Of a stretch of 34,842 nt of DNA, positions 1-34,842 are shown in pieces. Every line of letters starts with the position of its first letter. The stretch's first letter is position 1. Below the pieces are notes generated by a model. That model worked only from the letters and a program-made list of their open reading frames with translations, made no database searches and had not been told where the DNA came from. The DNA comes from an uncultured Helicobacter sp. Lineage in GTDB: Bacteria > Campylobacterota > Campylobacteria > Campylobacterales > Helicobacteraceae. The DNA lies in assembly GCA_947177485.1 (NCBI GenBank), contig CAMWUR010000022.1:1-34842 (forward strand), given 5' to 3'. Position numbers and translations under genes: made by a program.

Positions 1-100
1 CGCACCTCCCGCCAATTCTACTCGCAATGACATTCATCGGAGGTGCGACTTTGGTTGCACTCATGATTGGATTGTGTGCGGTTAAAATCGCATTCCGATT
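1..100. repeat. Degenerate tandem copies of a two-hairpin intergenic repeat
   Basis: Bases 1-9 match the closing arm of the hairpin unit seen at 34651-34716. A second, fuller copy follows: the lead-in CTCGCAATGACATTC (21-35), a first hairpin at 43-60 (arms GTGCGACT and GGTTGCAC around TT) and a second at 76-93 (arms GTGCGGTT and AATCGCAT around AA). Relative to the right-hand copy the arms carry four changes, all A to G or C to T, and all keep pairing as G-U in a + strand RNA. The family is unnamed here; it may be a terminator, a REP/MITE-like element or a processed RNA structure. The preceding gene lies outside the window. Confidence 0.7.
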
Positions 101-124
101 TGAACAAACAGCAATCATTCGCTT

Positions 125-153
125 TTGTGATTCTATAATCCTTGCGCTATAAT
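125..153 (+). promoter_or_regulatory. Putative sigma-70-type promoter of the pseudouridine synthase operon
   Basis: TATAAT at 148-153 lies 17 bases downstream of TTGTGA (125-130), which matches the -35 consensus at four of six positions. A second TATAAT sits at 134-139. The RBS-like AAGGA follows a few bases before the ATG at 174. Inferred from sequence only. Confidence 0.5.
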
Positions 154-173
154 GTGCAGAAATAAGGAATATC

Positions 174-1160
174 ATGCGAGAGACATTCCACAATACGCGC
201 GCAGGGCGGCTCGATTCCGTCCTTGCTGCGCTGCTTGGCACGAGCCGCAATCAGGCGGCGCAATTGCTCAAAGCAGGCGCTGTTACGGTGAATGGAATCG
301 CGCACAACGCCTCGTGGAAACTTTGCGGCGGCGAGGTGTTGCATGTTTGCAACAAGCAAGCAGAAGAGCAGCAAACGCAAGAAGTCGCGTTTGATGTGCC
401 GATTCTCTATGAGGACGATTGCCTGCTTGTGCTAAACAAGCCGCCCATGCTCGTTGTGCATGGCGCACCGAGCGTGCGCGAACCGACACTTTGCGACTGG
501 CTCACTCAAAAGGGCTACTGCCTCTCGACTCTTGCGGGGGACAATCGGCATGGAATCGTGCACAGGCTCGATAAACAAACAAGCGGCGCGATTGTGATTG
601 CCAAAGACAATGCCACACATAGTGCGCTAAGCGCGCAGCTGCAAAGCCGCGAGCTTGGGCGCTATTATCTCGCGATTGTCGATAGGGAATTGCGCGAGGA
701 TACGATTTTTGCATGTGATATGGCGCGTTCAGCGCACAATCGACTCAAAATGGGTAAAGTGCCGCAAGGCAAGGGACGCTTTTCGCAAAGCTTGTTTGCC
801 AACCTCGCCCCATCAAAGCGCGGCGATTCTGCGCTTATTGCCGCCAAGCTCAAAACGGGGCGCACGCATCAGATTCGTTGTCATCTTGAGAATCTCGGGC
901 GGCATATTTTGGGTGATAGGCTCTATGGCTATCGTGGGAGCTATGAGGGCAGAATCATGCTGCATGCCTATATGCTCTATCTCACACACCCAAAAACACA
1001 AGAAAGTTTGATTCTTAAAGCGCCTCTTTTCTTAGATATGTTAAGATACCTTTCGCAAAATTATGATAGGGAGAGGATAGATGAGGTCTTGGAGCATGGC
1101 TCTATCATTGCTGCTTTTGGGCTTCTTGATGAAAGGCTGCACGCCTGCGGCACAGAGTGA
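174..1160 (+). CDS. RluA/RluD-family pseudouridine synthase
   Basis: Predicted to isomerise uridine to pseudouridine in rRNA or tRNA. Residues about 1-58 look like an S4 RNA-binding domain, followed by the catalytic domain with the family motif HRLD at 130-133, whose Asp133 is the expected nucleophile, in the context HGIVHRLDKQTSG. The length of 328 aa fits the RluA/RluD family. The start ATG at 174 follows AAGGA. The last 80 bases overlap the next gene in another frame. It is the first gene of the run that continues through trmB and ftsEX, the same order I recall for the HP0745-HP0750 region of H. pylori. The exact target uridine cannot be read from sequence, so no symbol is given. Confidence 0.9.
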   Translation: MRETFHNTRAGRLDSVLAALLGTSRNQAAQLLKAGAVTVNGIAHNASWKLCGGEVLHVCNKQAEEQQTQEVAFDVPILYEDDCLLVLNKPPMLVVHGAPSVREPTLCDWLTQKGYCLSTLAGDNRHGIVHRLDKQTSGAIVIAKDNATHSALSAQLQSRELGRYYLAIVDRELREDTIFACDMARSAHNRLKMGKVPQGKGRFSQSLFANLAPSKRGDSALIAAKLKTGRTHQIRCHLENLGRHILGDRLYGYRGSYEGRIMLHAYMLYLTHPKTQESLILKAPLFLDMLRYLSQNYDRERIDEVLEHGSIIAAFGLLDERLHACGTE

Positions 1161-2298
1161 TTTGACTTTGCCCGAAATGGGCGAGGTGCAATATTTGGTT
1201 GATATTGATAGCGTTGCGTTTGAATGGAAGAGTTTTGCAGAGCGCCCTGAAGTTTCGGGCTACAATATCTACCGCAAGACGCTTGCAGAACAAGGCTATA
1301 CCCTCATCGATTCGCTCAATTCGCGCTTTACGACACACTATGTCGATTCGCCTCTTGCGCCCAGCACGACCTATCTCTATCGTTTCGCCACGAAAAATGC
1401 AAATGGTGCGGCAGGCGTTGCGACACAACCCTTGCAAATCACCACACGAGCATTTGCGCCACCCACGCATGTCCAAGCTGTGGGCAACTATCCGCGCAAA
1501 GTCAAGATTCTGTGGCGTCCGCACAAAGATTTGCGCACACAAGGCTATATTATCCAACGTGCAGAGGGCAAAGACTTTGTCGAAGTTGCGCGCATTGCCA
1601 ATCGCTTGCAGGTGGAATATTTGGACACAAATCTCAAAGATTCGACAGAATATTTCTACCGCGTGTTTGCTTTCACGGCGAGCGATATTCGCAGCGCGCC
1701 ATCTCCTGTCGTGAGTGCGCGCACCAAGCCTATTCCTGCCATGCCGCAAGGTGTGTTTGCCTCGTTTGATTTGCCCAAAATGGTCACGATTCGTTGGCAG
1801 AAAAGCCCACAAAGCGACATTGCAAGCTATGAAGTCTCGCGCACGATTCTAGGCGGAATCAGCAGCGAGGTGCTTGCAAATGTCGCCGCAACAGAGACGA
1901 GCTACACCGACAAAAGCGAGATTGATGGTGTGCGCTATGGTTATTATGTTGTCGCAATCGACAAGGACGGATTGCGTAGCGAGAGGCAGAAAAGCCCGAT
2001 TGAAGGTGGCACGCTCGCCGCGCCCGCCGCACCGACAATCCAAAGCATTGGCACAGAAAAGGGTTCGGTGATTTTACGTTGGACTGGGGATTCTCGAAGT
2101 GTGCAATACACAATCAACAAGCAGCAGAGTAGTTTTTTTGGTAAAAAGGAACGTTATATTTCCATTCCCTATACCTATTTCTATGACCACGAAGTCGCGC
2201 CGGGCGAACAATATCTCTATAATGTGATTGCGATTGACAAATTTGGATTGCAAAGCTCGCCGAGCGAAACGGTGAGTGTTACGCTCGAGGGTCGGTAA
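1081..2298 (+). CDS. Lipoprotein with four fibronectin type III domains
   Basis: A predicted lipoprotein: hydrophobic residues 6-17 precede Cys20 in the context LMKGC, a loose lipobox. Four FnIII-like modules follow, at about 30-122, 126-216, 220-304 and 316-403, each with the recurring Y-x-hydrophobic-Y/R-V-x-A pattern (for example YNIYRKT, YFYRVFA, YYVVAIDKDG, YNVIAIDKFG). FnIII modules usually bind proteins or glycans; no catalytic residue is seen. The start at 1081 is preceded by GGGAGAGG and is needed to include the signal peptide, so the 80-base overlap with the upstream gene looks real. It corresponds in position to H. pylori HP0746, and its place before trmB and ftsEX suggests an envelope role. 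The function is unknown. Confidence 0.85.
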   Translation: MRSWSMALSLLLLGFLMKGCTPAAQSDLTLPEMGEVQYLVDIDSVAFEWKSFAERPEVSGYNIYRKTLAEQGYTLIDSLNSRFTTHYVDSPLAPSTTYLYRFATKNANGAAGVATQPLQITTRAFAPPTHVQAVGNYPRKVKILWRPHKDLRTQGYIIQRAEGKDFVEVARIANRLQVEYLDTNLKDSTEYFYRVFAFTASDIRSAPSPVVSARTKPIPAMPQGVFASFDLPKMVTIRWQKSPQSDIASYEVSRTILGGISSEVLANVAATETSYTDKSEIDGVRYGYYVVAIDKDGLRSERQKSPIEGGTLAAPAAPTIQSIGTEKGSVILRWTGDSRSVQYTINKQQSSFFGKKERYISIPYTYFYDHEVAPGEQYLYNVIAIDKFGLQSSPSETVSVTLEGR

Positions 2299-3464
2299 TG
2301 CCACATTTGCTGCTGTCCAATTTGCCCAAAGTGTCCTATCCTTTCACACAAGGAGATTATACCTTTCTTGCTTGCCTTGCCAATGTTTCTGATTGTTCGC
2401 AGCTTTTGTGGGTGCGATTCCATGACATCGACTTTTTTCTCATCGCCTATCGCAAGGATTGCAAGATTATCCTAAAGGCGCACAAGCAGACTGCCCCGAC
2501 ATTAACGAGCATTGTGCAAGGAGCTTTGGCAGTGTGTCGGCAGGCATTTTGTGATTCTGTGCTTGCCGACAACCTCGCAACGCGTGCGCCAAAAAGCATA
2601 CAGAGTTCTCATCTGCTCGATGTGCGCGAGCTTTGCGCGCTTGTTGCAGAGAATCTGGGCAAGGATATGCGGCTTGAGATTGGCTTTGGCAGCGGGCGCA
2701 GAATCCTCAATCTCGCCGCAAACAATCCCGACACTCTTTGCATAGGTGTCGAGATTCATCGCCCCTCAATCGAGCAAGTGTTGCGGCAAATGGAATTGCA
2801 GAATCTGCACAATCTCTGGATTGTCAAGGCAGATGCGCGCTCGCTGCTCGAATGCCTGCCGAGCAATTGCCTTAGCGAAATCGCGCTACATTTTCCGATT
2901 CCATGGGCAAAACGTCATCGCCGTGTTTTGACGCAAAACTCTTGCGAGCAGGTTGGGCGCGTTTTGCAAAAGGGCGGCAAGCTCCATTTGCGCACCGATG
3001 ATGAGGGTTATTTTTGCGAGAGTCTCGAGTTTCTTTTGCAGTTGCCAAGCTGCCATTGCGAGATTGGCAAGAATCGCGCGCTTGATGTTGTGAGCAAATA
3101 TGAGTCGCGTTGGTTGCGGTTGCAAAAGCAAATTTGGGATTTGCTTTTTGAATGTGAGGACGAATGCGCGCCGCGAGATTCCGTGCGTTTTGGCTTTACG
3201 ACAAATGATGTCGCATATCTTATGCAGCTCTTTAGCTCGGACTTTACGCCTAGCAGGCATTGCAAAGACGGCATTTTGCTTGCTATTACAGCACTCTATC
3301 GTACAGAATCTGCCCTCATAGTCTCGCTTTGTCTTGGCAATGTTGCCTATCCGCAGACGGTGTTTTTGGTCATCGATGGCGCAAAAGCCTTCTATTGTCC
3401 CGTATTGCTACCGATTCAATCCAATCTTTTAGCGCATGAATGGCTTAAGGGAGGGAGACAATGA
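2298..3464 (+). CDS. trmB: tRNA (guanine-N7-)-methyltransferase
   Basis: Transfers a methyl group from SAM to N7 of G46 in the variable loop of tRNA. The SAM-binding glycine motif LEIGFGSGRRIL lies at about 126-137, an acidic residue ends the next strand (GVEIHRP, about 150-156), and FPIPWAKRHRR at about 199-209 matches the TrmB signature normally written FPDPWPKxRHxKRR. The protein is 388 aa, clearly longer than the roughly 240 aa E. coli enzyme; the extra length is about 120 residues at the N-terminus plus a C-terminal tail, as I recall for the H. pylori homologue. The second residue of the signature is Ile rather than the usual Asp. ATG at 2298 overlaps the upstream TAA by one base and the stop overlaps ftsE, indicating translational coupling. 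Confidence 0.9.
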   Translation: MPHLLLSNLPKVSYPFTQGDYTFLACLANVSDCSQLLWVRFHDIDFFLIAYRKDCKIILKAHKQTAPTLTSIVQGALAVCRQAFCDSVLADNLATRAPKSIQSSHLLDVRELCALVAENLGKDMRLEIGFGSGRRILNLAANNPDTLCIGVEIHRPSIEQVLRQMELQNLHNLWIVKADARSLLECLPSNCLSEIALHFPIPWAKRHRRVLTQNSCEQVGRVLQKGGKLHLRTDDEGYFCESLEFLLQLPSCHCEIGKNRALDVVSKYESRWLRLQKQIWDLLFECEDECAPRDSVRFGFTTNDVAYLMQLFSSDFTPSRHCKDGILLAITALYRTESALIVSLCLGNVAYPQTVFLVIDGAKAFYCPVLLPIQSNLLAHEWLKGGRQ

Positions 3465-4147
3465 GCAAGGACGTCATCATTGCAGCAGAGAAATTGTTTT
3501 TGGGCTATAAGCGCGAAGAGCCCGTTATCAAGAACGCATCGTTTCAGATTCGAGAAAAAGAGTTTGTGTTTATCAGCGGACCAAGCGGCAGCGGCAAAAG
3601 CACGTTATTGCGTTCGCTTTATGGTGGAATGTCGCTTTATGGTGGCGCGCTAGAGATTCTAGGAATCGATATGCAAAATCCAAACGAACAAGACATTGAG
3701 GAGCTGCGGCGGCATATCGGGATTATTTTTCAGGATTATAAGCTCATCAAAGATTGGAATGTGGAACGTAATATCATGCTTCCTATGATTATCAATGGCT
3801 ATTCTAAGGAGCTTTGCCGCTCGCAAACCGCGAAGCTGCTCAACCACATCAAGCTTTCGCATAAGGCAAATAATTATCCGCTTGAGCTAAGCGGTGGTGA
3901 ACAACAGCGCGTGGCGATGGCGCGCGCATTAGCGCATAATCCGATTATGATTCTTGCCGATGAGCCCACGGGCAATCTCGATGACCAATCGAGCGACATT
4001 ATTTGGAATCTGCTCAAGGGCGCAAACGAGCAGCTCGGCATTTGTGTGCTTGTGGTAACGCATGCGCATAAGATTCCGAATCTTGGGGTGGGCATGCTCT
4101 GTCGACAGCTCCATATTGACAAGGGGGGGATTTATGAAGTCTCTTAA
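3461..4147 (+). CDS. ftsE: Cell division ATP-binding protein FtsE
   Basis: ATPase of the FtsEX complex, which at the septum controls peptidoglycan hydrolysis through a periplasmic EnvC-type partner. Walker A GPSGSGKST is at 40-48, the Q-loop in IIFQDYKL near 90, the ABC signature LSGGEQQR at 143-150 and Walker B MILADEP at 163-169. The length of 228 aa is normal. ATG at 3461 overlaps the trmB stop (ATGA). The 3' end holds a run of seven G (4123-4129) that also forms the Shine-Dalgarno region of ftsX, so a slip there would change the FtsE tail and might affect ftsX translation. Directly followed by ftsX and an EnvC-like gene. Confidence 0.95.
   Translation: MSKDVIIAAEKLFLGYKREEPVIKNASFQIREKEFVFISGPSGSGKSTLLRSLYGGMSLYGGALEILGIDMQNPNEQDIEELRRHIGIIFQDYKLIKDWNVERNIMLPMIINGYSKELCRSQTAKLLNHIKLSHKANNYPLELSGGEQQRVAMARALAHNPIMILADEPTGNLDDQSSDIIWNLLKGANEQLGICVLVVTHAHKIPNLGVGMLCRQLHIDKGGIYEVS
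4123..4129 (+). repeat. Seven-G homopolymer at the ftsE-ftsX junction
   Basis: GGGGGGG codes for part of the FtsE tail (Lys-Gly-Gly) and ends five bases before the ftsX ATG at 4134, where it also serves as the likely ribosome-binding sequence. Helicobacter and Campylobacter use longer G tracts for phase variation; seven is below the usual unstable length. Confidence 0.75.
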
Positions 4148-4955
4148 GCGGCATTTGTCGCTTATCATTCCGCTACTCGCGATTCTCTTTAGCCTGCAAG
4201 CCATGCTTAGTATCTTGCGAATCCAAGATTCTTATGAGCTGACATTGCGCAATAGCTATTCAATTATTATTGCTGCGGGCAGGGAGCTCAAGAGTGATGA
4301 GATTGCGCTTCGCATAAGCGAGTTTCAATCCCTAGAACCCATCGATGCCGAGAGCATTATCAATAAGATTCAAGGCGAGGTGAGTGAAGAGAATCTCGAG
4401 CGCCTCAAGGGCAGTCTGCCATATTATTATTCAATCATGCTTTCGCAATTCCCCAATCAAGCGCGTCTTGTGCAAATTACTAATGTGCTCAAAGACGTCA
4501 AAGATGTCAAGCGCGTGGAGAGCTTTAGCAAGGCGCATGACCGAATCTATCGCTTATTATTGATTCTCAAGGGCACAATCATGCTATTTGGAACCATTCT
4601 TGGTATCGTCAGCGTTTTGTTGATGATAAAACAAGTCGAGATTTGGTATTTTGAGCATAGCGAGCGAATCGAGATTATGATGCTTCTTGGCGCACCAAGT
4701 TGGTTGCGCAATGGCTTGCTGTTTCGGCTCGCAATGATGGATTCTGTGGTTGCTACGCTCATCGTGAGTTTGGGTAGCCTCTATCTTAGCATGCAAACAT
4801 TCCTTACAAGCTTGCTGCATGAAATTGGCGTGAGCGATAGCATCTTTATGCCCGAATTTGACTTCATCATGCTATTGCTTTGCGCACTGCTCATCGCGAA
4901 TCTCTCGGTGTTTATCGTGATTGCGAGGATTACCAAAGAAAGGAAAAATGCATGA
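4134..4955 (+). CDS. ftsX: Cell division membrane protein FtsX
   Basis: Integral membrane partner of FtsE, expected to pass ATPase conformational changes to a periplasmic activator of cell-wall hydrolases. A first membrane segment lies at about residues 9-23, followed by a periplasmic domain to about 140, then three membrane segments near 150-170, 205-230 and 245-265. This is the FtsX four-helix layout, in 273 aa. The start is placed at ATG 4134 (MKSLKRHLS), 14 bases inside ftsE, because the upstream in-frame extension is out-of-frame ftsE coding DNA. The stop overlaps the next gene (ATGA). Confidence 0.9.
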   Translation: MKSLKRHLSLIIPLLAILFSLQAMLSILRIQDSYELTLRNSYSIIIAAGRELKSDEIALRISEFQSLEPIDAESIINKIQGEVSEENLERLKGSLPYYYSIMLSQFPNQARLVQITNVLKDVKDVKRVESFSKAHDRIYRLLLILKGTIMLFGTILGIVSVLLMIKQVEIWYFEHSERIEIMMLLGAPSWLRNGLLFRLAMMDSVVATLIVSLGSLYLSMQTFLTSLLHEIGVSDSIFMPEFDFIMLLLCALLIANLSVFIVIARITKERKNA

Positions 4956-6181: not shown

Positions 6182-6228
6182 AAAGCACTCAAGTTTTTAT
6201 GGGCTTATGCCGATTATAGTAGGGAATA

Positions 6229-6237
6229 TGTTATAAT
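6229..6237 (+). promoter_or_regulatory. Extended -10 promoter upstream of flaG
   Basis: TGTTATAAT is a perfect extended -10 element (TG-n-TATAAT). It lies in the 86-base gap between the EnvC-like gene and flaG, about 30 bases before the start codon. GCCGATTA at 6209-6216 resembles a sigma-28 -10 box, but no good TAAA lies at the right distance, so flagellar sigma control is only a possibility. Confidence 0.6.
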
Positions 6238-6267
6238 GGCATAATAAACTATCAAGGAGGATAGATT

Positions 6268-6687
6268 ATGGAATCAATCCAAACAACACTCACAACCAAC
6301 TATGCACCAAGCATTGCACCAATGCCAGCTGCATCAAGTACCCCCACACCCAGTGTTCCCAAAATGCCCAGTAGCACACCATCTGTCGATTCGAGTCGTT
6401 TTGTCGAAGAAAGTGCGACAAACCCTCAAGGTTTTTCACAAACTTCCGATGTAGAAGAAGACACAAAGGAGAGAATTGCAGAGCTCGTGGATAAGCTCAA
6501 TGCGGTGTATAACCCGCTCAATCTGTCGGCGTCCTTTGGCTATAATGACGACATCAAAGCCATGTATGTCGAGGTGAAAAGAATCGACAATGGCGAGGTT
6601 TTGCGCCAGATTCCTAGCCAAGAGGCGATGCGCTTGATGGTAGCGATTCGCGAGATGCAAAGTGCAATTTTCGACACTGAAGTCTAA
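6268..6687 (+). CDS. flaG: FlaG-family flagellar protein
   Basis: Flagellar protein that modulates filament length or polar flagellum assembly in relatives. The first 65 or so residues are Pro/Ser/Thr-rich and look disordered. The conserved FlaG/YvyC fold follows (about 70-139), ending in the family hallmark RQIPSQEAMRLM at about 112-123. It is 139 aa long. ATG at 6268 is set by a strong Shine-Dalgarno AAGGAGG (6254-6260). First gene of the flaG-fliD-fliS block, 15 bases before fliD. Confidence 0.9.
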   Translation: MESIQTTLTTNYAPSIAPMPAASSTPTPSVPKMPSSTPSVDSSRFVEESATNPQGFSQTSDVEEDTKERIAELVDKLNAVYNPLNLSASFGYNDDIKAMYVEVKRIDNGEVLRQIPSQEAMRLMVAIREMQSAIFDTEV

Positions 6688-6702
6688 ATCTAAGGAGAAA
6701 TT

Positions 6703-11030: not shown

Positions 11031-12206
11031 ATGAAACATAAGACTCCTATTTTTTATGAGGCACATCGAAAAAAGTTTTTAGATACAAATGCCAAAGAGA
11101 TTCGAAAGATAAAGCTTTTTACACCCATAATCGCTATCATGCCTGCCGAGTCTTTTTATGTTGCACACTTGAATGAAACACAAAATGATTCAGAATCTTT
11201 TGCGCATGCTTTATTGCAACTCAATCTCGATGGTAGCGAGGAATATTTTTTTGCGCGTCCAAGCCCAAAAGTGGGCTATATCTACCCACAATCTCTTTTG
11301 CGCCACGAGATTATGGAGCTCCAAAGGCATTCATTTGCCTCATTGGTTGCTGTCCCTTGTGTCGCGATTCTGCCAGCGCTTGTGCCTAGCGATGTGCCCA
11401 CACTCGTTGTTTGGACAGGAGAGGACAATTTTGTCGCTATCCTTTTTGAAGGATTAGTGCATTTTTTTCAGGCGCTCAAGCCCGGCGATTCTATTGCCGC
11501 AATCCTTGCAAATCTGATTCCTGTGCTCAATTTTCATCAGCTTTTTCCGCAGAATGTTTTGAGCACAATTCAAAATGATGCAATTGTTGATTTTTGCGCT
11601 ACAAGCGGAATCGAGCTGGCACTAATCGAGGCTTGTTTTTGTAATGAAAAAAGCATGGAATTTGTGCAGCAAAACCCACAAATATGCTGGGTTGAAGATT
11701 CAAAGATTGAATGTGTAAATTTTAGCAAACTTATGCTTTGCATGTCGTTTGTTTGTTTTGCCGTTTTGGCGATGCCTCTATGGGAATATTGGGACGCATA
11801 TTGGCATTATCAGACGCAAGAACCTCAAGAATTTAGCGAAACAAGTGGGGTAGATGTCGATAGATTCTATATCCAAAGTCTCCTTGCAGATTCGGATTTT
11901 CCTCTAGAATCTCTTGACGATTCTTTGTGGCACAAACTCTACGAAATCAACCATTTTGACATGCAATATTTAAGTCAAATGCTCTTAGATTTTACAAGTC
12001 CTGACATCTTGCGGGGCGTGAATATCCAAAAAGTAAAAATGGATTATGCCGCAAAGATTCTGCAGTTTGAATTGAGTGCTGTTGATTATGGAATGCTTGT
12101 TGCAGTACTGGAGCGATTGAAGCAAATCCATGCTAAACCTATTTCTGTCAATCAAACGCAAAAACTGAATGGATATTATCTTGTTCATATTGGAATTGTG
12201 CTATGA
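11031..12206 (+). CDS. GspL/PilM-MshI-like inner-membrane assembly protein
   Basis: 391 aa with the topology of GspL: a cytoplasmic domain of about 230 residues, one membrane helix at about 233-252 (KLMLCMSFVCFAVLAMPLW), and a periplasmic part of about 135 residues whose last 80 could form a ferredoxin-like fold. Sequence similarity to GspL or PilM is weak, so the assignment rests on topology and position as first gene of an operon with secretin, GspE and GspF. In type IV pilus systems the same job is split between PilM and PilN; MshI is the MSHA equivalent. It may correspond to one of the poorly conserved Cts proteins of the Campylobacter competence locus. Its stop overlaps the next gene (ATGA). 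Base composition is AT-rich. Confidence 0.55.
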   Translation: MKHKTPIFYEAHRKKFLDTNAKEIRKIKLFTPIIAIMPAESFYVAHLNETQNDSESFAHALLQLNLDGSEEYFFARPSPKVGYIYPQSLLRHEIMELQRHSFASLVAVPCVAILPALVPSDVPTLVVWTGEDNFVAILFEGLVHFFQALKPGDSIAAILANLIPVLNFHQLFPQNVLSTIQNDAIVDFCATSGIELALIEACFCNEKSMEFVQQNPQICWVEDSKIECVNFSKLMLCMSFVCFAVLAMPLWEYWDAYWHYQTQEPQEFSETSGVDVDRFYIQSLLADSDFPLESLDDSLWHKLYEINHFDMQYLSQMLLDFTSPDILRGVNIQKVKMDYAAKILQFELSAVDYGMLVAVLERLKQIHAKPISVNQTQKLNGYYLVHIGIVL

Positions 12207-13075
12207 AGTTTCTGCATTTTATCTTTGGAATCATGCAGCAAGTTGAGCGTTATTTGGCTGCAAAAAGCGTGAGTGAACGAACAATTATTTTTATTTTATC
12301 AGGACTATGTATGGGTGTTTTATCATGGAGATTTATTGTTCCAACGATAGAAGAATATACAAAGGATTTTTATAGATTAAGCGATTTGCGCAAGGCAGAT
12401 TGGCAAAGCGTAATCGAGCAGGAAACGTATTTGCAACACTTCAAAAATAAGCAAGTTGCATTAGAAATCTTGACGGAACAAATCCAAGAAAGTTATGTTG
12501 AGATTGAGCAAACACACAGGATATGGCAGGATATTTTGGGCGAAATTTCCAAGATTATTGTGGATACGGATAGGATTCCTAAAGAGATTCAAACAACAAA
12601 TGATGGGAATAGTTTAATTCTCAAGGGAAATGCAGAATGGTTATCTTTATTAGAGCTCATTAATTTGCTAGAGCGAAACATTGTCTTTTTGCAAGTCGAT
12701 TCGATTGCATACACACAGAATCTCGAGGAATTAAATTATGAATTAAAAATTAGTAACCCTATCAAGACATTTGAAACAATTGGGCGCAACGAAGATGCGA
12801 TTCTAAGATTTTTGGACAACTCATCGCACATTCGAACGTCTGTGCCAAAGATTGAATTTCCAAAAGTCTTGACTACTCCACAACAAACAGCAGAGAATCC
12901 ATCGATTGTCGTTCAGGCTTTTATGCTGAATCATGCAAAAATCAATGGAGAATGGTTTGTTGTTGGTGAACATAAAAATGGGATTCGATTGATTGGAATC
13001 GAAAAATGTGGCGTGATGCTCGAAAGGGCGCAGCAGAAAGTGTGCATTAATATAGACATTTCAAGGAAAAAGTGA
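12203..13075 (+). CDS. PilO-PilP-like (MshJ-MshK-like) fused assembly protein
   Basis: 290 aa. After a short cytoplasmic N-terminus comes one membrane helix (about 26-44), then a coiled coil (about 55-115) and a region of about 125-195 with the PilO/GspM ferredoxin-like pattern (LILKGNAEWLSLLELINLLE). The C-terminal 60 residues read like a PilP/GspC homology region (INGEWFVVGEHKNGIRLIGI), which in other systems is a separate protein touching the secretin. I therefore read it as a PilO-PilP fusion; the fold matches are by eye only. It overlaps both neighbours by 1-4 bases and lies directly before the secretin, as expected for its partner. Confidence 0.55.
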   Translation: MKFLHFIFGIMQQVERYLAAKSVSERTIIFILSGLCMGVLSWRFIVPTIEEYTKDFYRLSDLRKADWQSVIEQETYLQHFKNKQVALEILTEQIQESYVEIEQTHRIWQDILGEISKIIVDTDRIPKEIQTTNDGNSLILKGNAEWLSLLELINLLERNIVFLQVDSIAYTQNLEELNYELKISNPIKTFETIGRNEDAILRFLDNSSHIRTSVPKIEFPKVLTTPQQTAENPSIVVQAFMLNHAKINGEWFVVGEHKNGIRLIGIEKCGVMLERAQQKVCINIDISRKK

Positions 13076-14535
13076 TGAATAAATGGTTTTTAGGATTTTT
13101 GCTGGCAACTGCAATTGCATGTCCCATTAGTATTGTCAGTAATGGTGAGGTTTCCTTAGAAGAACTTCTTGTTAAATTGAGTCTCGAGTGCAAAATGAAT
13201 ATTGTTGTTAAGGATTCCTATTCTACACAACGAATCAAAGAAATTTTTCCCATTCTCCATCTTTCGCAGATACCCATTCAGGATAGCATGGAGGTTTTGC
13301 TCCATGAAAATGGGCTTTTTTATGAAATAGAAGATTCTGTATTGCGGATTTTTGGAACAAAAACGCAAGTCTTTCAAATCCATTATGTTGCAACAGAACG
13401 AAGTGGTGTGAGCAGCACAGAGGTATCAATTAGTCGTAACGATGGCGGCATGGGTTACCGTGCAAATAGTGGGAACGAACATGATATTTTTGAAAAGAGT
13501 GGCGGAAGTCGTTCCGGAGTCAATATTACGACAGAAGATAAACTCAATTTTTGGAGCACGATTGCAACAGAATTGCACCATATTCTCTATCGTCCCGGTG
13601 AAATGTCGCCCATGCATGTTGCCTCGCAAGATACGAATGGAACTGCAAGAACATCAAATATTATTATCAATAAAGCTGCGGGATTAATCACGGTTACAGG
13701 GACAAAATCACAACTAGAACGCGTTACAAATTATTTGGATATTTTGCAAGATTCTTTAACGCGACAAGTCATGATTGACCTTTCAATTTTGACAATTACT
13801 CATAATAATACACATACAACAGGAATCGATTGGAATCAACTCTATTCGCTCCAAAATTTTAGCACAATTCCACAAACAGATAGCACACAAAATGGCTTTA
13901 TGCAGTTAAGCAATGGAGAGTTTAGCTATTCTCTCAACCTTTTTCCACAGAATATTACTCTAAATAGAATTGTAGAGTTTTTAAGTCAATATGGTGAAGT
14001 TAGTACATTATCCAACCCTAAATTGCTTACATTAAATAATCAGCCCGCTATGATAAGTGTGGGCGATGTGATTCGTTACCGCAAAAACACGGTATTTCAA
14101 AGCAGTGCAAATACGACAACAAATACAAATACAGATACAGAATATCCCTCTGTTTTTGCGGGTGTTTTGCTCGATATTACGCCTTCTATTTTTGAAAATA
14201 ATCTTATGCTAAAAATCAATCCTTCAATCACGAGTTTAAAAGGGCGCGAGATTCAAAATGCGGCACAAGCATTGGATTCCCCACCAAATCTAAGTGCAAA
14301 TCAGCTTTCGTCTATTGTTTATGTGAGCAATGGCAAGAAAATTGTGATTGGCGGATTAATCCGAAAAAATTCCAATATGGAATATTCAGGCATTCCTATT
14401 CTTATGGATATTCCTTTATTAAGTTATCTTTTTTCTTATAAACAAGAGATTCAAAACACCGTAGAAATGGTCATTGTCATTACGCCTTATATTGTTCCTA
14501 TTGATAATATCAATTCTATGGAGGAAAGTCAATGA
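13075..14535 (+). CDS. Type II/IV secretin (GspD/PilQ/MshL/CtsD family)
   Basis: Outer-membrane secretin ring subunit. N-terminal signal sequence (KWFLGFLLATAIACPIS), an STN domain at about 24-85, a poorly conserved N-domain region to about 230, then the secretin core (about 300-475) with SNPKLLTLNNQPAMISVGD, VYVSNGKKIVIGGLI and the terminal MVIVITPYIV. At 486 aa it is short, closer to MshL or Campylobacter CtsD than to classical GspD. The in-frame GTG at 13072 is an alternative start, but ATG 13075 overlaps the upstream TGA by one base and is preferred. Its gap-free place before the ATPase gene indicates one machine. Confidence 0.9.
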   Translation: MNKWFLGFLLATAIACPISIVSNGEVSLEELLVKLSLECKMNIVVKDSYSTQRIKEIFPILHLSQIPIQDSMEVLLHENGLFYEIEDSVLRIFGTKTQVFQIHYVATERSGVSSTEVSISRNDGGMGYRANSGNEHDIFEKSGGSRSGVNITTEDKLNFWSTIATELHHILYRPGEMSPMHVASQDTNGTARTSNIIINKAAGLITVTGTKSQLERVTNYLDILQDSLTRQVMIDLSILTITHNNTHTTGIDWNQLYSLQNFSTIPQTDSTQNGFMQLSNGEFSYSLNLFPQNITLNRIVEFLSQYGEVSTLSNPKLLTLNNQPAMISVGDVIRYRKNTVFQSSANTTTNTNTDTEYPSVFAGVLLDITPSIFENNLMLKINPSITSLKGREIQNAAQALDSPPNLSANQLSSIVYVSNGKKIVIGGLIRKNSNMEYSGIPILMDIPLLSYLFSYKQEIQNTVEMVIVITPYIVPIDNINSMEESQ

Positions 14536-16085
14536 AACATATTGATTGGGAAGAATGTTACAAAAAATGCCTCGATGGCTCGATGAAGCCTGAAGACATA
14601 GAATGTTCTCTTGATGAGGTTTTGCGCAATCTTGCACAGATTGCAAAATTGCCCTATATCGAGCTACAGCCTGAAAAAATTGATGCAACTTTGTTGCGTT
14701 CCTTTTCTGTTTTTAATGCGACAAAATTTTCAACTCTGCCGCTGAAAACTGACGATGCTAAAATCCATTTTGCTTCGCTCAATCCTTTTAATCCACTTAT
14801 GCGCCATACTCTCCAAAATATTTTTGGGACTAAAGAATATTCTTTCTGTTTTGCTTCGCCACAATCTTTTGCATTTGTGCTCGAATGGGTGAGTGTCGAA
14901 GCAAAAGCATTGTTGCTGCAAACGGCATTACTAGAGGAACATAAAGCCCCAATCCAAGATTCCACAACTTTGCAAAGTTTTGTGGCATTATTACTCGAAG
15001 AAGCGTTGCGATTATGCGCAAGTGATGTGCATATTGAATCGAGAGATGATACGTCGATTCGCATGCGTATCGATGGTTGTCTTATCGAAAGATTTTGCTT
15101 TGATTTTGCATTATTTGCGCCGCTTTCTTCACAGCTAAAGCTGATTTCTAAGCTCGATATTTCCGAAAAACGCAAGGGGCAAGATGGGCGATTCTGTTTG
15201 CCATTTTTTCCAAAAGTAGATTTTAGAATCTCGACAATCCCAATTGCAGGTGGAGAATCGATTGTGATACGAATCCTCGATAATTCACGGCAAAAACTGA
15301 CGCTCAATCAATTAGGATTTGCATTGGATTCCATAGAAATTTTGCGGCGAACAATCCAAAAAACACATGGGATTTTGTTTGTTACAGGACCAACAGGAAG
15401 TGGCAAATCAACGACTTTGTATGCGTTGTTACAGCTTTGCGACAAAGAACGACAAAAAATCATCACTATCGAAGACCCGATTGAATACGAAATGCAAGGA
15501 ATCACGCAAGTTGTGCTCAATAATAAAATCAATTTTGGTTTTTCAGAGGTTTTGCGCAATATTTTGCGTCAAGACCCAGATATTCTGATGATTGGCGAGG
15601 TGCGAGACCAAGAAACTTTGCAGCTCGCGTTTCAGGCTTCGCTCACAGGACATCTTGTGCTTTGTACTCTACATACAAATGATGCGCTCGAAAGCATCAC
15701 ACGTCTTTTGGATATGGGAATCGAACCCTATTTTCTCGCTTCTGCCTTATTGCTTGTTGTCTCGCAACGGCTCGTGCCAAAACTTTGCCCACATTGTCGT
15801 GAATCGTATTCGATAGACTATGAAGATTCTAACACGACTTTTTATCGTTCTAAAGGCTGTGCGCGGTGCTATGGGCGGGGGTTTTTGGGACGAGAATTAC
15901 TCTATGAAATTTTACCAATGACAAAACATCTAAAAGAGGCGCTGCATCAGAAAGCCACTCAAAAAGAGCTCCTAAAAATCGCTAAAAACGAGGGCTTTGT
16001 GCGTATGGTTGAGCAGGGTTTGACAAAGGCAAAATCGGGCTTGATGACGCTTGAAATTTTACATGGAATCCAGAATGACTTTTGA
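14532..16085 (+). CDS. GspE/PilB-type assembly ATPase (CtsE/MshE-like)
   Basis: Hexameric ATPase that drives pilus or pseudopilus extension. A GspE N-terminal domain (about 20-130) precedes the core. Walker A GPTGSGKST is near 286-294, the Asp box in ITIEDPIEYE near 315, Walker B ILMIGEVRD near 350, the His box TLHTNDA near 380. A zinc-binding tetracysteine follows (LCPHC near 417-421 and CARC near 442-445), typical of the GspE/PilB extension ATPases and absent from retraction ATPases such as PilT. 517 aa. ATGA overlap with the secretin gene. No pilT-like retraction ATPase is in the window. Confidence 0.93.
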   Translation: MKHIDWEECYKKCLDGSMKPEDIECSLDEVLRNLAQIAKLPYIELQPEKIDATLLRSFSVFNATKFSTLPLKTDDAKIHFASLNPFNPLMRHTLQNIFGTKEYSFCFASPQSFAFVLEWVSVEAKALLLQTALLEEHKAPIQDSTTLQSFVALLLEEALRLCASDVHIESRDDTSIRMRIDGCLIERFCFDFALFAPLSSQLKLISKLDISEKRKGQDGRFCLPFFPKVDFRISTIPIAGGESIVIRILDNSRQKLTLNQLGFALDSIEILRRTIQKTHGILFVTGPTGSGKSTTLYALLQLCDKERQKIITIEDPIEYEMQGITQVVLNNKINFGFSEVLRNILRQDPDILMIGEVRDQETLQLAFQASLTGHLVLCTLHTNDALESITRLLDMGIEPYFLASALLLVVSQRLVPKLCPHCRESYSIDYEDSNTTFYRSKGCARCYGRGFLGRELLYEILPMTKHLKEALHQKATQKELLKIAKNEGFVRMVEQGLTKAKSGLMTLEILHGIQNDF

Positions 16086-17274
16086 GATTATTTATAGCCA
16101 AAATGATGTTTTGCACACCACAGAATTTCAGGCAGAAAGTCGTGAAAGTGCTATCCAACATTTTAAACAAAATCAAAATATCCAACTCATAAAAATCACA
16201 CAGATTGCGACAAAAAGAAGCCCACTTTTTTGCAAAACTTTGAGCACAAAAGAGCTTTCTATTGTATTCTATCAATTTGCCATTCTCTTAAATGCTGCTA
16301 TTCCATTGCGCAATCTGCTCGAGAGTCTTGCACAATATCCCCACCCTAAAGTTCAGGCAATGTTTGCGCATGTTTTGCGCGCTGTACAAAATGGGCAACA
16401 GCTATGCGATGGATTTGCGCCTTTTCGTAAAGAGCTTGGCATTGGAATTGAGCTCATCGCCTTAGGAGAAAAAAGCGGAAATCTACCCCAAACTCTGCTG
16501 CTTTTTGTTGATTTTTTGCGCAATAAAGAGCAAAATCAGAAGCGCCTTTTAAACGCGCTTGCGTATCCAATTTTTTTATTCATTGCAATTATTGGTGCGC
16601 TGTTTATCATTATCGGATTTCTATTGCCCCAATTTGAAAGTCTATTTATGAGTTTTAATAAACAGCTTCCTCCGCTTACACAATTCCTTTTTTCTTTGCA
16701 GATTCTCATAACACCTCTTTTTTTGGCAGGCTACGCGATAAGTTCTTGCGCAATCGTACTTTTTTGGATTTTGTTGCGTCAAAATGAAACATTGAATCGA
16801 AGCTTTGATGCATTCTTGTTGCGGATTCCATTTATAGGAAATCTTTTACGTGCGCAACATCTATTCTTTTATTTTTCGACAATGAAACTCCTATTTGCCG
16901 CAGGCTTTGTGCTCGATAATGTCCTCGACCTTTGCACCAAAACATGTGCAAATAGCGCCTTGCGTGCGCGACTTGCAATGATTCCAACGTATCTCAAACA
17001 GGGGCAAACCTTGAGTGATTCGATGCAGCATGTGCATGTTTTTACACCTATTGTGCTTGCGCTCATTGCGGCGGCGCAAAAGAGTGGCGAAATGGAAAAA
17101 ATGCTCCACACAGCCGCCGAGCTCTATGGGAGCGAATCGGCGCACAAACAAGCGCAGCTACTTGCGCTCATCGAACCGCTTATGACTTGCCTTATGGCAG
17201 GTGTTGTGCTGCTCATCGCATTGGGCGTGTTTTTACCTTTGTGGGAGCTGAATGCAGTTGGCGCGCAGTGGTAG
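16075..17274 (+). CDS. GspF/PilC-type inner-membrane platform protein (CtsF/MshG-like)
   Basis: Polytopic platform protein on which pilins are assembled. It has two repeated GspF domains of about 120 residues, each ending in membrane helices: LAYPIFLFIAIIGALFIIIG near 165-190, FLAGYAISSCAIVLFWILL near 220-240, and a final helix near 370-395. 399 aa from ATG 16075. The in-frame TTG 16051 and ATG 16063 are alternatives that add 8 or 4 residues. It overlaps the ATPase gene by 11 bases and is the last gene of the operon, converging on glmU with one base between the stop codons. No pseudopilin or prepilin peptidase gene follows. Confidence 0.9.
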   Translation: MTFEIIYSQNDVLHTTEFQAESRESAIQHFKQNQNIQLIKITQIATKRSPLFCKTLSTKELSIVFYQFAILLNAAIPLRNLLESLAQYPHPKVQAMFAHVLRAVQNGQQLCDGFAPFRKELGIGIELIALGEKSGNLPQTLLLFVDFLRNKEQNQKRLLNALAYPIFLFIAIIGALFIIIGFLLPQFESLFMSFNKQLPPLTQFLFSLQILITPLFLAGYAISSCAIVLFWILLRQNETLNRSFDAFLLRIPFIGNLLRAQHLFFYFSTMKLLFAAGFVLDNVLDLCTKTCANSALRARLAMIPTYLKQGQTLSDSMQHVHVFTPIVLALIAAAQKSGEMEKMLHTAAELYGSESAHKQAQLLALIEPLMTCLMAGVVLLIALGVFLPLWELNAVGAQW

Positions 17275-22435: not shown

Positions 22436-22444
22436 GTAGCTTTC

Positions 22445-27683: not shown

Positions 27684-27702
27684 ACCATATTGAGTATTTG
27701 CA

Positions 27703-29774: not shown

Positions 29775-29790
29775 ATTAGGCAATTTGCGA

Positions 29791-29796
29791 TAGAAT
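29791..29796 (+). promoter_or_regulatory. Weak candidate -10 element upstream of the UPF0323 gene
   Basis: TAGAAT in the 50-base gap after yejE, about 29 bases before the ATG at 29825. One mismatch from TATAAT, no convincing -35. The gap itself suggests a new transcription unit. Confidence 0.3.
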
Positions 29797-29824
29797 AATA
29801 TCATTTTTGATATGGGGATTTGTC

Positions 29825-30490
29825 ATGAAACATTTACGCAAAATTTCGGATTGTGCCATTATTGGGACAATGGGAGCAATTGTTCTCGTGAGCATGAATG
29901 CATGCTCAAGCGATAATGCGCAAAGCAGTGGGCGCGGCGATAATGCCGCTGTGGCAAAGGCGGCGCAACAAGGCGCATTTGTTGTGATACAAGAAAACGA
30001 GGACGGGAGCTACAAGATTCTCGAGGAGCACCCAAGCGAGAACACACGTATTTTGCTCAAAAAGCCTGATGGTAGCGAGCGTATGCTCACTCAAGAAGAG
30101 ATTGATGCACTCGTTGCCGAAGAGAATCGCAAGATTGACAATGGCACAAGTCAGCTCACCAACCCCACAGGCGGTGGGCTTTCGCTTGGTGAAACAATCC
30201 TCGCGAGCGCCGCTGGTGCCATCATCGGGAGCTGGATTGGCAGCAAGCTTTTTAACAATAACAATTTCGCCAATCAGCAGCGCGGCGCTTATTCTTCGCC
30301 CCAAGCCTATGAGCGCAGCCAAAATGTGCGCCAAAACACTGCACGCGCAGCAAGCGGAGCAACAAGCGGTCGCAGCGGATTCTTCAGCCCCCAAAACAAA
30401 GCGCCCGCGACCACTTCGGGTAGCACATCGCGACAAAGCACTTCGACTGGTTCTGCTGCAACAAGTGGCAGCAGCGGCGTTGGAGGTTGA
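29825..30490 (+). CDS. UPF0323 family lipoprotein
   Basis: 221 aa lipoprotein restricted, as far as I know, to Helicobacter and close relatives. Signal peptide with lipobox in SMNAC (Cys about 25). Family features are [20 protein letters not shown] near 46-65, KIDNGTSQL near 104-112, a glycine-rich hydrophobic stretch [20 protein letters not shown] near 125-144 that looks like a glycine-zipper helix, and a Ser/Thr/Gly/Ala-rich tail. Start at ATG 29825 after GGGGA; the upstream in-frame TTG adds six residues. Followed two bases later by the glutathionylspermidine-synthase-like gene, the same pair as H. pylori HP0232-HP0233. Function unknown. Confidence 0.88.
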
Positions 30491-30492
30491 GA

Positions 30493-31668
30493 ATGGAAAT
30501 CACCAAACTAAAGGCTTTACAGCCCGAGTTTCTCGAAGAGATTGGGTTTAGCTGGCACACAGACCCTGATTCAACGCCCTACATCGCTGATGAGGCAGTC
30601 GCTGTGAGCGAAGACGAGGCGGAAGCATATTATGCTGCCGCGAATGAACTCTATGAGATGTTCATCGAAGCAGGGGAGTATGTGATAAAGAATAATCTCT
30701 TCTTCGAGCTCGGAATCCCATTTAACGCAGTGGATATGATTAAAATGAGCTGGGAAGACGAGATTCATTGGCATTTGTATGGGCGCTTTGATTTTGCGGG
30801 CGGGCTCGATGGGCAGCCGATTAAACTGCTCGAGTTCAATGCCGACACGCCGACAATGCTTTTTGAAAGCGCGATTGTGCAATGGGCGCTGCTCAAGGCA
30901 AATGGCAAAGATGAAACCATGCAATTCAATAATGTCTATGAAGCATTGCGCGATAATTTTAAGCGGCTCATCACGCTTGGCGAAGATATTTCCGCATTTG
31001 AGGAAATGTATGAAGGTTGGGGGATTTTGTTCTCAAGCATTGCGGACAATGCCGAAGAGGAACAAACCGTGCGCCTGCTTCAGCATATCGCCAAAGAAGC
31101 GGGATTCAACACGCATTTTTGCTATGCGCATGAGGCACATCTAAGCGCTGATGAGGGATTGTTTTGCAATGAGCAGAATTATGAGTTTTGGTTCAAGCTC
31201 GTTCCATGGGAGATGATTAGTGTCGATGAACCCGAAATGGCAGCGCTCATGACAGAAATGATGCGCAATAAAAACACGATTTTTCTCAATCCTGCCTATA
31301 CGCTTTTGTTCCAATCCAAGCGAATCCTCAAGATTCTCTGGGATTTATTCCCCAATCACCCACTGCTGCTCGAAACGAGCTTTGAGCCACTAGCGGGCAA
31401 AAAAATGGTCAAAAAGCATGCCTTTTCTCGCGAGGGCGAGAATGTCGCAATCCTCGAGCCAAATGGCAAAGCGTTGGTTGAAAAAGGCGGCAATTATGGC
31501 AATCTGCCCGCTGTCTATCAAGAATATGTCCCACTCAATGCGCATGCAAACGAACGTTATCAAGCAAATGTGTTCTATGCGTATGAGGCATGCGCGTTGG
31601 GCTTTCGGCGCGGTGGCGAGATTTTGGATAATTATTCCAAATTTGTCAGTCATTATATCAAGCCCTAA
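30493..31668 (+). CDS. Glutathionylspermidine synthase-like ATP-grasp protein
   Basis: 391 aa, similar to the synthetase domain of glutathionylspermidine synthase (Gsp/YgiC/YjfC group), which joins a carboxylate to an amine with ATP. Visible features are an N-terminal WHTDPDSTPYIADEAV (about 16-31), the substrate/ATP region FNADTPTMLFESA near 117-129, the FLNPAYTLLFQSKRIL segment near 263-278, and the conserved KKHAFSREGENVAIL near 309-323. No amidase domain is present, so it matches the stand-alone synthetase-like family, whose real substrate is unclear in this group. ATG 30493 follows GGAGG and gives this length; TTG 30487 is less likely. Nine bases before ileS. Confidence 0.82.
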   Translation: MEITKLKALQPEFLEEIGFSWHTDPDSTPYIADEAVAVSEDEAEAYYAAANELYEMFIEAGEYVIKNNLFFELGIPFNAVDMIKMSWEDEIHWHLYGRFDFAGGLDGQPIKLLEFNADTPTMLFESAIVQWALLKANGKDETMQFNNVYEALRDNFKRLITLGEDISAFEEMYEGWGILFSSIADNAEEEQTVRLLQHIAKEAGFNTHFCYAHEAHLSADEGLFCNEQNYEFWFKLVPWEMISVDEPEMAALMTEMMRNKNTIFLNPAYTLLFQSKRILKILWDLFPNHPLLLETSFEPLAGKKMVKKHAFSREGENVAILEPNGKALVEKGGNYGNLPAVYQEYVPLNAHANERYQANVFYAYEACALGFRRGGEILDNYSKFVSHYIKP

Positions 31669-31677
31669 GGAATCTGA

Positions 31678-34422
31678 ATGGATTATAAAGATACCCTGAT
31701 TTTGCCCGAGACGACGTTCCCGATGCGCGGCAATCTCCCCCAAAATGAGCCCAAAACCTATCAAAAATGGCACGATTCTAATGTCTATGCGAAGATGAAA
31801 AAGCAGCGCGAAGAAGCGCCACCATTCAATCTCCACGATGGTCCTCCCTATGCAAATGGGCATATCCATATCGGGCATGCGCTGAATAAGATTCTGAAAG
31901 ATATGATTGTCAAAATCCATTATTTCCATGGCAAAAATGTGCGCTACACGCCGGGCTGGGATTGTCATGGTTTGCCCATTGAACAACAAGTCGAAAAGAC
32001 ATTAGGCAAGGCAAAAAAGGATTCATTGCCTAAAAGCAAGGTACGCGAGCTCTGCCGCGAGCATGCCAAAAAATTTCTCGAGATTCAAAGCGATGAGTTC
32101 CAAAAACTCGGCGTGATTGGAGACTTTGAGAATCCTTATAAAACAATGGATTTTGCCTTTGAGGCAAATATCTACCGCGTTCTTTGCGAGGTGGCAAAAA
32201 AAGGGCTTCTTATTGAACGTTCCAAGCCCATTTATTGGAGTTGGGCATGCGAGACCGCGCTTGCCGATGCCGAGGTGGAATACCACGACAAGGTTTCGGA
32301 TTCTGTGTTTGTCGCATTTGATTTGAGCAAGCAGGCATGCGAGAAGCTCGGAATCGCGAGCGCAAAGGCTGTGATTTGGACAACAACACCTTGGACACTG
32401 CCTGCAAATCAGGCGATTTGCCTCAATCCACATGAAACCTATATTCTCACGAGCGAAGGGCTTATTTTTGCCAAACCCTTGCTGCAAAGTGCGGTTGAGA
32501 AAGGACTAAGCAAGGGCGAGATTGTGCGTGAGTTTGCCGCAAACGCGTTTGAAAATCTCAAGGCGAAGAATCCGCTCAATGGGCGCGATTCGATTCTGAT
32601 TCTTGGCGAGCATGTAACAATGGACGGCGGCAGCGGGCTCGTGCACAGTGCACCCGGGCATGGCGAAGATGATTATTATATTTGCCTCAAATATGGAATT
32701 GATGTCATCATGCCCGTTGATGACAAGGGGCGCTTTAGCGAAGAGCTCCGCCGTCTTGGGCTTTTGCGCAAAGACGCGCTCGATGAGCTCGTTGGCATGC
32801 ATATTTTCAAGGCGCAGGATAGAATCCTCGAGCTGCTCGGCGATTCGCTGTTGCTGCACACCAAAATCACGCATTCCTATCCCTATTGCTGGCGCAGCCA
32901 TGAGCCCGTGATTTATCGCGCCACAAAGCAATGGTTTATCGTCATGGACAAGCCCTTTTGCGAGGGCAAAACATTGCGCGAGCTCGCACTTGAAGCGATT
33001 GATTCCACAACCTTCTACCCCGCTGTGGGTAAAAATCGAATCCGCACAATGGTCGAAAACCGCCCCGATTGGTGCATTTCGCGCCAACGCGATTGGGGCG
33101 TGCCGATTGCCTTTTTTCGCGACAAAACCACGCAAGAAGTCGTGCTTGCACCCGAAGTTTTGGACTTTGTCGCGAACATGTTTGCGCAACATGGTTGTGA
33201 TGTGTGGTGGGACAAAACAACGCGCGAGCTGCTGCCGCCAAGCTGGCAAGACAGAAGCGAGCAGCTCGAGAAATGCGACAATATCCTCGATGTGTGGTTT
33301 GATAGTGGCAGCACATGGTTTGCCGTCTTGAATAGCGGAATCTACGATGCGGGCGGCTACCCCGCCGATGTGTATTTGGAGGGCAGCGACCAACACCGCG
33401 GCTGGTTTCAGAGCTCGCTTTTGCTAAGCTGCATTTTGCAAGGGCGCGCGCCCTATCGGAGCATTCTGACGCATGGCTTCACAATGGACGAGAATGGCGA
33501 AAAAATGAGCAAGTCGAAGGGCAATGTGATTGCGCCCGAAGATGTGCGCAAGGAGTTTGGGAGCGAGATTTTGCGGCTTTGGGTCGCGCTTTGTGATTTT
33601 CAAAACGACCAAAAGATGTCACAAAATATTCTGAAACAAACCGCTGAAAACTACCGCAAGATTCGCAACACATTGCGCTTTTTGCTCGCGGGCACGAGCG
33701 ATTTGCCCGAGCTTTCTTTGCAGAATCTTAGCGCGATTGATTGCTGGATTTTGCAGCATGCAAACAATGTTTTTGCGCAGGCGAGCGCGGCGCTGCTTTC
33801 GTATGATTTTTCGGTTGCGCTCCCGCTTCTTAGCCATTTTATCGTGAATGAGTTGAGTGGAATCTATCTTGATTTGTGCAAGGATATTTTGTATTGTGAT
33901 GCGGAAAATAGCCCACGTCGCCGTGCTGCACAAAGTGCTATGGCGCTGATTGCCCAAAAGCTTTTCGAGCTGCTCGCCCCGATTCTGACCTATACAATCG
34001 ATGAGGCGATAACGCATGCGCGTGGCTATCTCGCTGGCACAAACCACGATGTTTTCGAGCTACTCTACACGTCCATGCCGCCTCTGCCAAATGCGCAAAA
34101 TTTCGAGCCCTTGCTTGCCATACGTTCGCTGTTTCTCGAAAAGATTGACATGCTCAAAAAAAGCGGGGCGATTAAATCCACGCTCGAAGTCAGCCTCGTT
34201 GTGCCGCATGATTTTTGGTTTGCCGAAATGGGCGCGTGGCTCATGGTGAGCGAAGTGGGCGCGGAGATTGCGCATGATGGAATCCTCGCCGAGTTTGAGT
34301 TCGAGGGCGAGCGCTTCGTGCTCGCGCGCTCGAGCCTGCACAAATGCCCGCGCTGCTGGCAGTTTCTGGCACGCGCTCCACAGAGTTTGTGCCAACGTTG
34401 TGCGGAAGTCGTGCATGTTTGA
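31678..34422 (+). CDS. ileS: Isoleucyl-tRNA synthetase
   Basis: Class I synthetase charging tRNA-Ile, with editing of Val. 914 aa. HIGH motif in [12 protein letters not shown] (about 59-70), the CP1 editing domain near 190-400 with [12 protein letters not shown], the catalytic core with [10 protein letters not shown] and [15 protein letters not shown], and the KMSKS loop in [11 protein letters not shown] near 605-615. The C-terminal zinc knuckle is CPRCWQF with LCQRC near 890-910, as in bacterial-type IleS. Codon use is GC-rich at third positions compared with the secretion operon. Preceded by AAGGAAT; its last eight bases overlap a small membrane ORF. Confidence 0.97.
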
Positions 34423-34519
34423 TTTGTATGCGCCGATTACTTGGAAAGAAATCGCGCTCACTGCCGCTGTGATTTGGCTCGCAATGGGCGTGTCGTATTG
34501 GGCGCTGAAGCGGAAGTGA
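34415..34519 (+). CDS. Small single-pass membrane protein (34 aa)
   Basis: Begins [12 protein letters not shown] and has one hydrophobic helix at about residues 12-29 ([19 protein letters not shown]), ending in basic KRK, so N-terminus out or in cannot be fixed with certainty but the positive end favours the cytoplasm for the C-terminus. The ATG lies eight bases inside ileS with GGAAG upstream, which suggests translational coupling. Too short for statistical support; helix composition and the good start make it plausible. Unknown family. Confidence 0.5.
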
Positions 34520-34550
34520 GGTTTGGAATCTTATAAGAATCGCGCTATCT

Positions 34551-34640
34551 GTCATTGTGAGTCTGCAAAGCAGATGTGGCAATCCATGATTCTTATTTGC
34601 CCAACGTCATGGAGTGCTTCGGGCACACACTCGCGATGAC
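34551..34640. repeat. Long imperfect inverted repeat downstream of ileS
   Basis: Outer arms GTCATTGTGAG (34551-34561) and CTCGCGATGAC (34630-34640) pair over 11 positions, two of them G-U as + strand RNA. Inside are a small perfect hairpin TCTGCAAAGCAGA (34562-34574) and a GTGC/GCAC stem near 34615-34626. The GTCATTG-GAG end with GGCAATCCATG resembles intergenic repeats seen in many bacteria. The right arm sequence is shared with 21-31 at the other end of the window. Confidence 0.65.
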
Positions 34641-34650
34641 ATTCCTATTT

Positions 34651-34716
34651 GGAGGTGCGACTTTAGTCGCACTTGGTATGCGATTCTCGTTTATGTGCGA
34701 TTGAAATCGCACCTCC
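34651..34716. repeat. Two-hairpin intergenic repeat (intact copy)
   Basis: Outer arms GGAGGTGCGA (34651-34660) and TCGCACCTCC (34707-34716) are perfect reverse complements, and each half is itself a perfect hairpin: GTGCGACT-TT-AGTCGCAC (34655-34672) and GTGCGATT-GA-AATCGCAC (34695-34712). It can fold either as one long stem or as two short ones. A diverged copy lies at 39-97. Confidence 0.8.
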
Positions 34717-34770
34717 GATTCTATCTAGTTATCGTCTTAACTCGCGATTCGATTCTTTGTGTTTTTCTTC

Positions 34771-34820
34771 TAAGGGGGACAAGGGGTGCTACTTGCGAAG
34801 CGCTCCCCTTATCCCCCTTA
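34771..34820. repeat. C/G-run hairpin near the right edge
   Basis: Arms TAAGGGGGACAAGGGG (34771-34786) and CCCCTTATCCCCCTTA (34805-34820) pair at 15 of 16 positions around an 18-base loop that contains CTT-GCG-AAG. The single mismatch is C-A on the + strand but becomes G-U on the - strand, so RNA from the - strand would pair throughout. It could be a terminator or part of a repeat family; the next gene is outside the window. The stretch 34520-34842 holds this and the two repeats before it, and no gene that I can support. Confidence 0.65.
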
Positions 34821-34842
34821 TAATCCCCCAAACCCCTGCACG

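Follow-up and report, generated by a model that had tools for sequence, protein, structure and literature searches.

The chromosome of this uncultured Helicobacter is very probably an ordinary Helicobacter chromosome under extreme avoidance of the recognition sites of Type II restriction-modification (R-M) systems, and about 98% of its GATC and about 98% of its GGCC, the two most depleted words of all, have been lost. Avoidance of R-M sites is a known effect and the genus is rich in the corresponding enzymes; this case stands out by which words are lost and by how deeply. The window, that is, the whole stretch of DNA that was analyzed (34,842 bases), is contig C22 of assembly G000, which comprises 2.04 Mb in 97 contigs and is estimated to be 99.98% complete.

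An exact string count found no GATC in the window (1..34842, unstranded), as an earlier note made from the sequence alone had claimed, vs 161 expected under a Markov model based on tri- and dinucleotides and 148 ± 10 in dinucleotide shuffles; the roughly 130 sites that the note had expected thus compare with computed figures of 148–161. The codon-level rule that it had described is evident in the 26 open reading frames (ORFs) of the window: following a codon that ends in G, isoleucine is written ATT 232 times, ATA 19 times, and never ATC; following a codon that ends in A, it is written ATC 117 times and ATT 52 times; and aspartate preceding a codon that starts with C is GAC in 52 cases and GAT in none. 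Synonymous codon shuffling of the window genes yields 124 GATC vs 0 in the real sequence, and GAATC and GATTC are indeed very common (122 and 139, respectively). The AT-rich secretion operon recognized from its ORFs (GspE/GspF-like; 11031..17274, + strand; 39% GC vs 48% in the rest of the window) obeys the same rule, with 0 of 26 expected GATC and 0 of 7.5 expected GGCC. A GATC count of zero rules out Dam-type regulation at GATC within the window, a consequence that the note had drawn. The completeness of the absence is partly luck, given that, at the genome-wide rate, a window of this size would contain about 3.6 GATC, with P(0) of about 0.03; GATC is also missing from 11 of 73 stretches of 15–20 kb. 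Overlooked in the earlier note were the absence of GGCC from the same window (1..34842, unstranded; exact count of 0 vs 77 expected under the Markov model) and the strong depletion there of further words, namely, CTSAG, GGATG, GTSAC, CGWCG, GATATC, and others.

A genome-wide count against a Markov expectation and a count in sister genomes, both proposed in the earlier note, agree with the window. Over the 1.655 Mb (81% of the genome) covered by the word counts, GATC occurs 165 times vs 7,421 expected (0.022) and GGCC 78 times vs 3,867 expected (0.020); even where GC is under 40%, GATC stands at 0.043 of expectation. No 16S rRNA was found in the assembly; by IleS, the nearest relatives are uncultured Helicobacter genomes at 92–93% identity, and the sequence sampled from two incomplete sister genomes contains 0 GATC vs 363 expected. 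In the 28 relatives compared, GATC varies between 0 and a roughly normal level, and GGCC is below 0.1 of expectation in 24.

At least ten further words, all of the kind targeted by restriction enzymes, are depleted genome-wide, among them CTSAG, GGATG, GTSAC, CGWCG, GATATC, CTRYAG, CATATG, CCWWGG, GGNNCC, and TCTAGA. The depletion is sharply specific: CTSAG is low but CTAAG is not, and GTSAC is low but GTAAC is not. The depleted words are thus under-represented genome-wide, their neighbors are spared, and cognate systems are present in the genome or in close relatives, the pattern of Type II site avoidance. A homologue of Hpy99I (E 5e-104), an EcoRV-family enzyme, and a CfrBI-family enzyme are all resident in the genome; we take the specificities of these families to be CGWCG, GATATC, and CCWWGG, respectively, and three depleted words accordingly match resident restriction enzyme families. 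The methyltransferase stock of the genome consists of 9 D12-type matches, 16 N4/N6-type matches, and one C5 enzyme. One D12 methyltransferase (contig C2, L048:9279-10953) is accompanied by a partner of 200 aa, which matches no Pfam family and is GIY-YIG-like in appearance, and homologues of this unit are found in G004, G018, G024, and other genomes; its presence accompanies low CTSAG among relatives (p = 0.001, uncorrected, in a comparison of 29 genomes that are few and closely related).

The words were removed at the DNA level, almost entirely via synonymous codon choice. Coding sequences contain 132 GATC vs 5,141 in synonymous shuffles and, outside Trp-Pro, 24 GGCC vs 3,410. Trp-Pro is always written TGGCCN, so that GGCC is forced, and these codon pairs account for 34 of the 58 coding GGCC sites (the WPGNIREL motif in one predicted protein is an example); GGCC is also kept in 7 of 23 tRNA genes. 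Trp-Pro and tRNA sites outlast the freely changeable ones, which points to selection. The Trp-Pro pairs themselves are scarce, 34 vs 137 expected from composition in the genome sample, in which Pro-Trp numbers 94; the 8 vs 54 in a first, smaller sample overstated the scarcity relative to the larger one. Trp-Met, which forces GGATG, is only mildly low (45 vs 87 expected; Met-Trp, 83). The ratio of Trp-Pro to Pro-Trp is 53:186 when the genome is pooled with 23 other low-GGCC relatives vs 36:49 in GGCC-tolerant genomes (p = 0.0006), but taken alone, this genome does not differ significantly in the ratio from a small set of E. coli sequence (p = 0.11), and we therefore consider an effect of GGCC avoidance on protein sequence, in the form of Trp-Pro scarcity, to be likely but not proven.

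Under our preferred explanation, avoidance of Type II sites, the lineage would have long carried, lost, and re-acquired many R-M systems, and an unmethylated site would have been a liability both in the chromosome of the carrier and in DNA passed from strain to strain, for which reason GATC, GGCC, and at least ten other target words would have been removed. Contrary evidence is that the most depleted words, GATC and GGCC, are without a recognized nuclease, in the assembly for GATC and in the 81% searched for GGCC, and that among relatives the depth of depletion does not follow the cognate genes recognized so far, as detailed below for both words.

For GGCC, the agent was probably a CbeI-type system, composed of an alpha-class N4-cytosine methyltransferase and a nuclease, of which the methyltransferase is kept here. 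A D12 methyltransferase on contig C32 (L061:12069-12920) matches PDB 7m6b over residues 4–275, near full length (E 8e-85), and shares with it the LDPPYYS motif (DPPY); the other D12 enzymes of the genome, where compared, match it weakly. The structure is that of M.CbeI from Caldicellulosiruptor bescii (PMC8616854). This enzyme, once annotated as adenine-specific, is a GGCC methyltransferase of the alpha class that modifies cytosine at N4 (PMC3425538). The Helicobacter protein is homologous to M.CbeI over its full length and is therefore a putative GGCC enzyme, which, judging from this similarity, probably methylates GGCC in this genome. Homologues with 67–88% identity are encoded in the sister genome G002 and in G005, G006, G007, G008, G011, and G020, and in these relatives a Type II nuclease gene lies directly upstream of, and overlaps, the methyltransferase gene. 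This presumed partner nuclease (about 361 residues; PADLOC REase_II, E 1e-74) is intact in G002, G006, G008, and G020 and interrupted in G005, G007, and G011. In contrast to a complete CbeI system, the genome under study has no such gene beside its methyltransferase; an HNH nuclease gene occupies the nuclease position, and a CbeI-like partner was not found in the 81% of the genome searched. The simplest reading is that the methyltransferase outlived its nuclease. A second, broken M.CbeI-type copy, 68% identical and with six stops, is located behind the EcoRV system on contig C29 (L060:10541-10903; L195). GGCC is also very low in many relatives that lack both a C5 methyltransferase and a homologue of M.CbeI, and part of the family-wide avoidance of GGCC is therefore older or due to other GGCC systems. 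A search for an NgoPII-type GGCC nuclease gave no match, and no control matched either.

The single C5 methyltransferase was considered as the GGCC enzyme and rejected: its partner, in an AT-rich insertion, is a nuclease of the Bpu10I family, and most of the 16 relatives (out of 28) that have no C5 enzyme still have near-zero GGCC. The locus of this pair (contig C6, L052:7886-14764) holds a GMP synthase gene that is seemingly split. A 1279-aa ORF that joins the glutamine amidotransferase domain to a methyladenine glycosylase and several GNAT domains comes first, followed by the C5 methyltransferase and the Bpu10I-family nuclease and then by the ATP-PPase/C-terminal part as a separate ORF. In G006 (L094), a DpnII-type cassette is located at the 3' end of guaA, and both there and in G016 (L095) the C-terminus of the methyltransferase duplicates the tail of guaA (TSKPPGTI...). 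The guaA gene looks like a recurrent insertion site of R-M systems with target duplication.

For GATC, the agent is probably either a system of the DpnII/MboI type, which many relatives have and this genome no longer does, or an unrecognized resident one. Nucleases of this type are present in 15 of the 28 relatives, in six cases as a fragmentary, split, or interrupted gene, and a DpnA-like methyltransferase adjoins the DpnII-family nuclease at all 4 loci read in relatives; unlike these carriers, the assembly under study is without one. Searches for two of the three types of GATC cutter named in the earlier note came back empty: the whole assembly gave no match to the DpnII family (PF04556), and the genome gave none to the MutH/Sau3AI family (PF02976). 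The latter was rejected as the GATC agent, given the absence of PF02976 matches in the genome and the 28 relatives alike, with a positive E. coli control. The genome has no close relative of DpnA, the best match being 36% identical, to an enzyme of CcrM-like architecture, and a PDB comparison of two nucleases from D12-pair systems returned no GATC enzyme among the matches. The note had proposed that the lineage long lived with a GATC-cutting enzyme; the DpnII/MboI-type systems of the relatives support this for the lineage but not for this genome, whose assembly gave no nuclease of either family. Among the relatives (29 genomes in all, few and closely related), the presence of DpnII does not predict the depth of GATC avoidance. 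Restriction nevertheless appears to be the probable selective force against GATC.

The pressure against GATC probably persists or ended very recently. In a 645-kb sample containing about 35,600 one-step neighbors of GATC, the 63 GATC observed would, by our own arithmetic and with equal rates assumed, be regenerated after about 0.5% neutral divergence. Current or very recent pressure would fit an active GATC R-M system of an unrecognized type that is resident in the genome, for instance, the unit of a TSPPY-type methyltransferase and an HNH nuclease on contig C32 (L061:12927-14367) or a D12 system whose nuclease is unclassified. The proposal falls within the preferred explanation and departs from it only in taking the pressure to be ongoing; we regard it as possible, but hold it tentatively. 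Several Type II nucleases of the genome have no assigned specificity, and the HNH nuclease is conserved at 83–94% identity across distant Helicobacter genomes (L126-L132) with IleS only about 60% identical, which indicates recent exchange of the unit among genomes; the unit is broken in several others. Its association with low GATC is weak (p = 0.008, tenth-ranked word, over the same few and closely related 29 genomes) and not specific to GATC, as CCGG and CATATG rank higher. In addition, GATC is just as scarce where the unit is missing, in the sisters and in other genomes (G020, G024), and the genome lacks a close DpnA-type methyltransferase.

Somewhat unlikely, in our estimate, is a combined proposal: that the avoidance is now enforced by a non-resident agent, for example, through exchange with DpnII- or CbeI-type strains that selects for portable DNA, and that it is strong enough to alter proteins, leaving Trp-Pro at about one-quarter of expectation across these Helicobacter. 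Slightly more doubtful again is purely external pressure, whereby transformation or phage exchange with strains carrying DpnII- or CbeI-type systems would select word-free chromosomes in the absence of any resident nuclease. In its favor, no resident nuclease is recognized for GATC or GGCC, and among relatives the cognate systems occur patchily and in many cases are defective; the AT-rich, probably exchanged stretches are depleted too (the regions with GC under 40% mentioned above); and R-M genes are 70–94% identical between genomes with IleS only about 60% identical. This evidence is purely indirect, however, and recent loss of a resident system accounts for the same facts. A mutation or repair process in place of restriction, such as mismatch repair nicking at GATC or deamination of methylated cytosine in GGCC, is very improbable: avoidance in relatives is independent of the cognate genes recognized so far, which would fit it, but none of the 29 genomes encodes a MutH-family protein, deamination predicts enrichment of AGCC/GGCT and GACC/GGTC, found at 1.09 and 0.75, with TGCC/GGCA and CGCC/GGCG enriched instead, the far better survival of hard-to-remove sites (Trp-Pro codons and tRNAs) points to selection, and words with resident nucleases are depleted in like manner.

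Type II site avoidance, our preferred explanation, has well-characterized precedents. Rusinov et al. (2015) found that it grows with the lifespan of the R-M system and outlasts the loss of the system, and that a word can stay depleted in a genome that lacks the enzyme as long as its relatives have it, with GATC as a known outlier (PMC4687349). As in those cases, short, mostly palindromic Type II words are depleted chromosome-wide; unlike them, a single genome has both GATC and GGCC at 2% together with at least ten other depleted words, and residual sites forced by the protein sequence are seen in this Helicobacter genome. In whole genomes of H. pylori, the observed-to-expected ratios are 0.02 for GTAC, 0.04 for GTSAC, 0.17 for CGWCG, 0.90 for GATC, and 0.68 for GGCC (PMC3849833). 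The two share a genus and the near-complete loss of some R-M words, but GATC and GGCC, nearly normal in H. pylori, are the most depleted here, and GTAC (0.90) is close to expectation.

A bacterial chromosome in which two tetranucleotides have fallen to 2% of their expected number, along with at least ten more depleted words, is near the limit and provides a quantitative test case, since a count of regained sites sets bounds on how long ago an R-M system was lost. For genetic work in strains of this kind, DNA free of the depleted words would be the obvious material, and some Helicobacter methyltransferases that are annotated as Dam, and hence as adenine-specific, may in fact act on cytosine in GGCC. 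The residual sites, in Trp-Pro codons and tRNAs, mark the places where function outweighs restriction.
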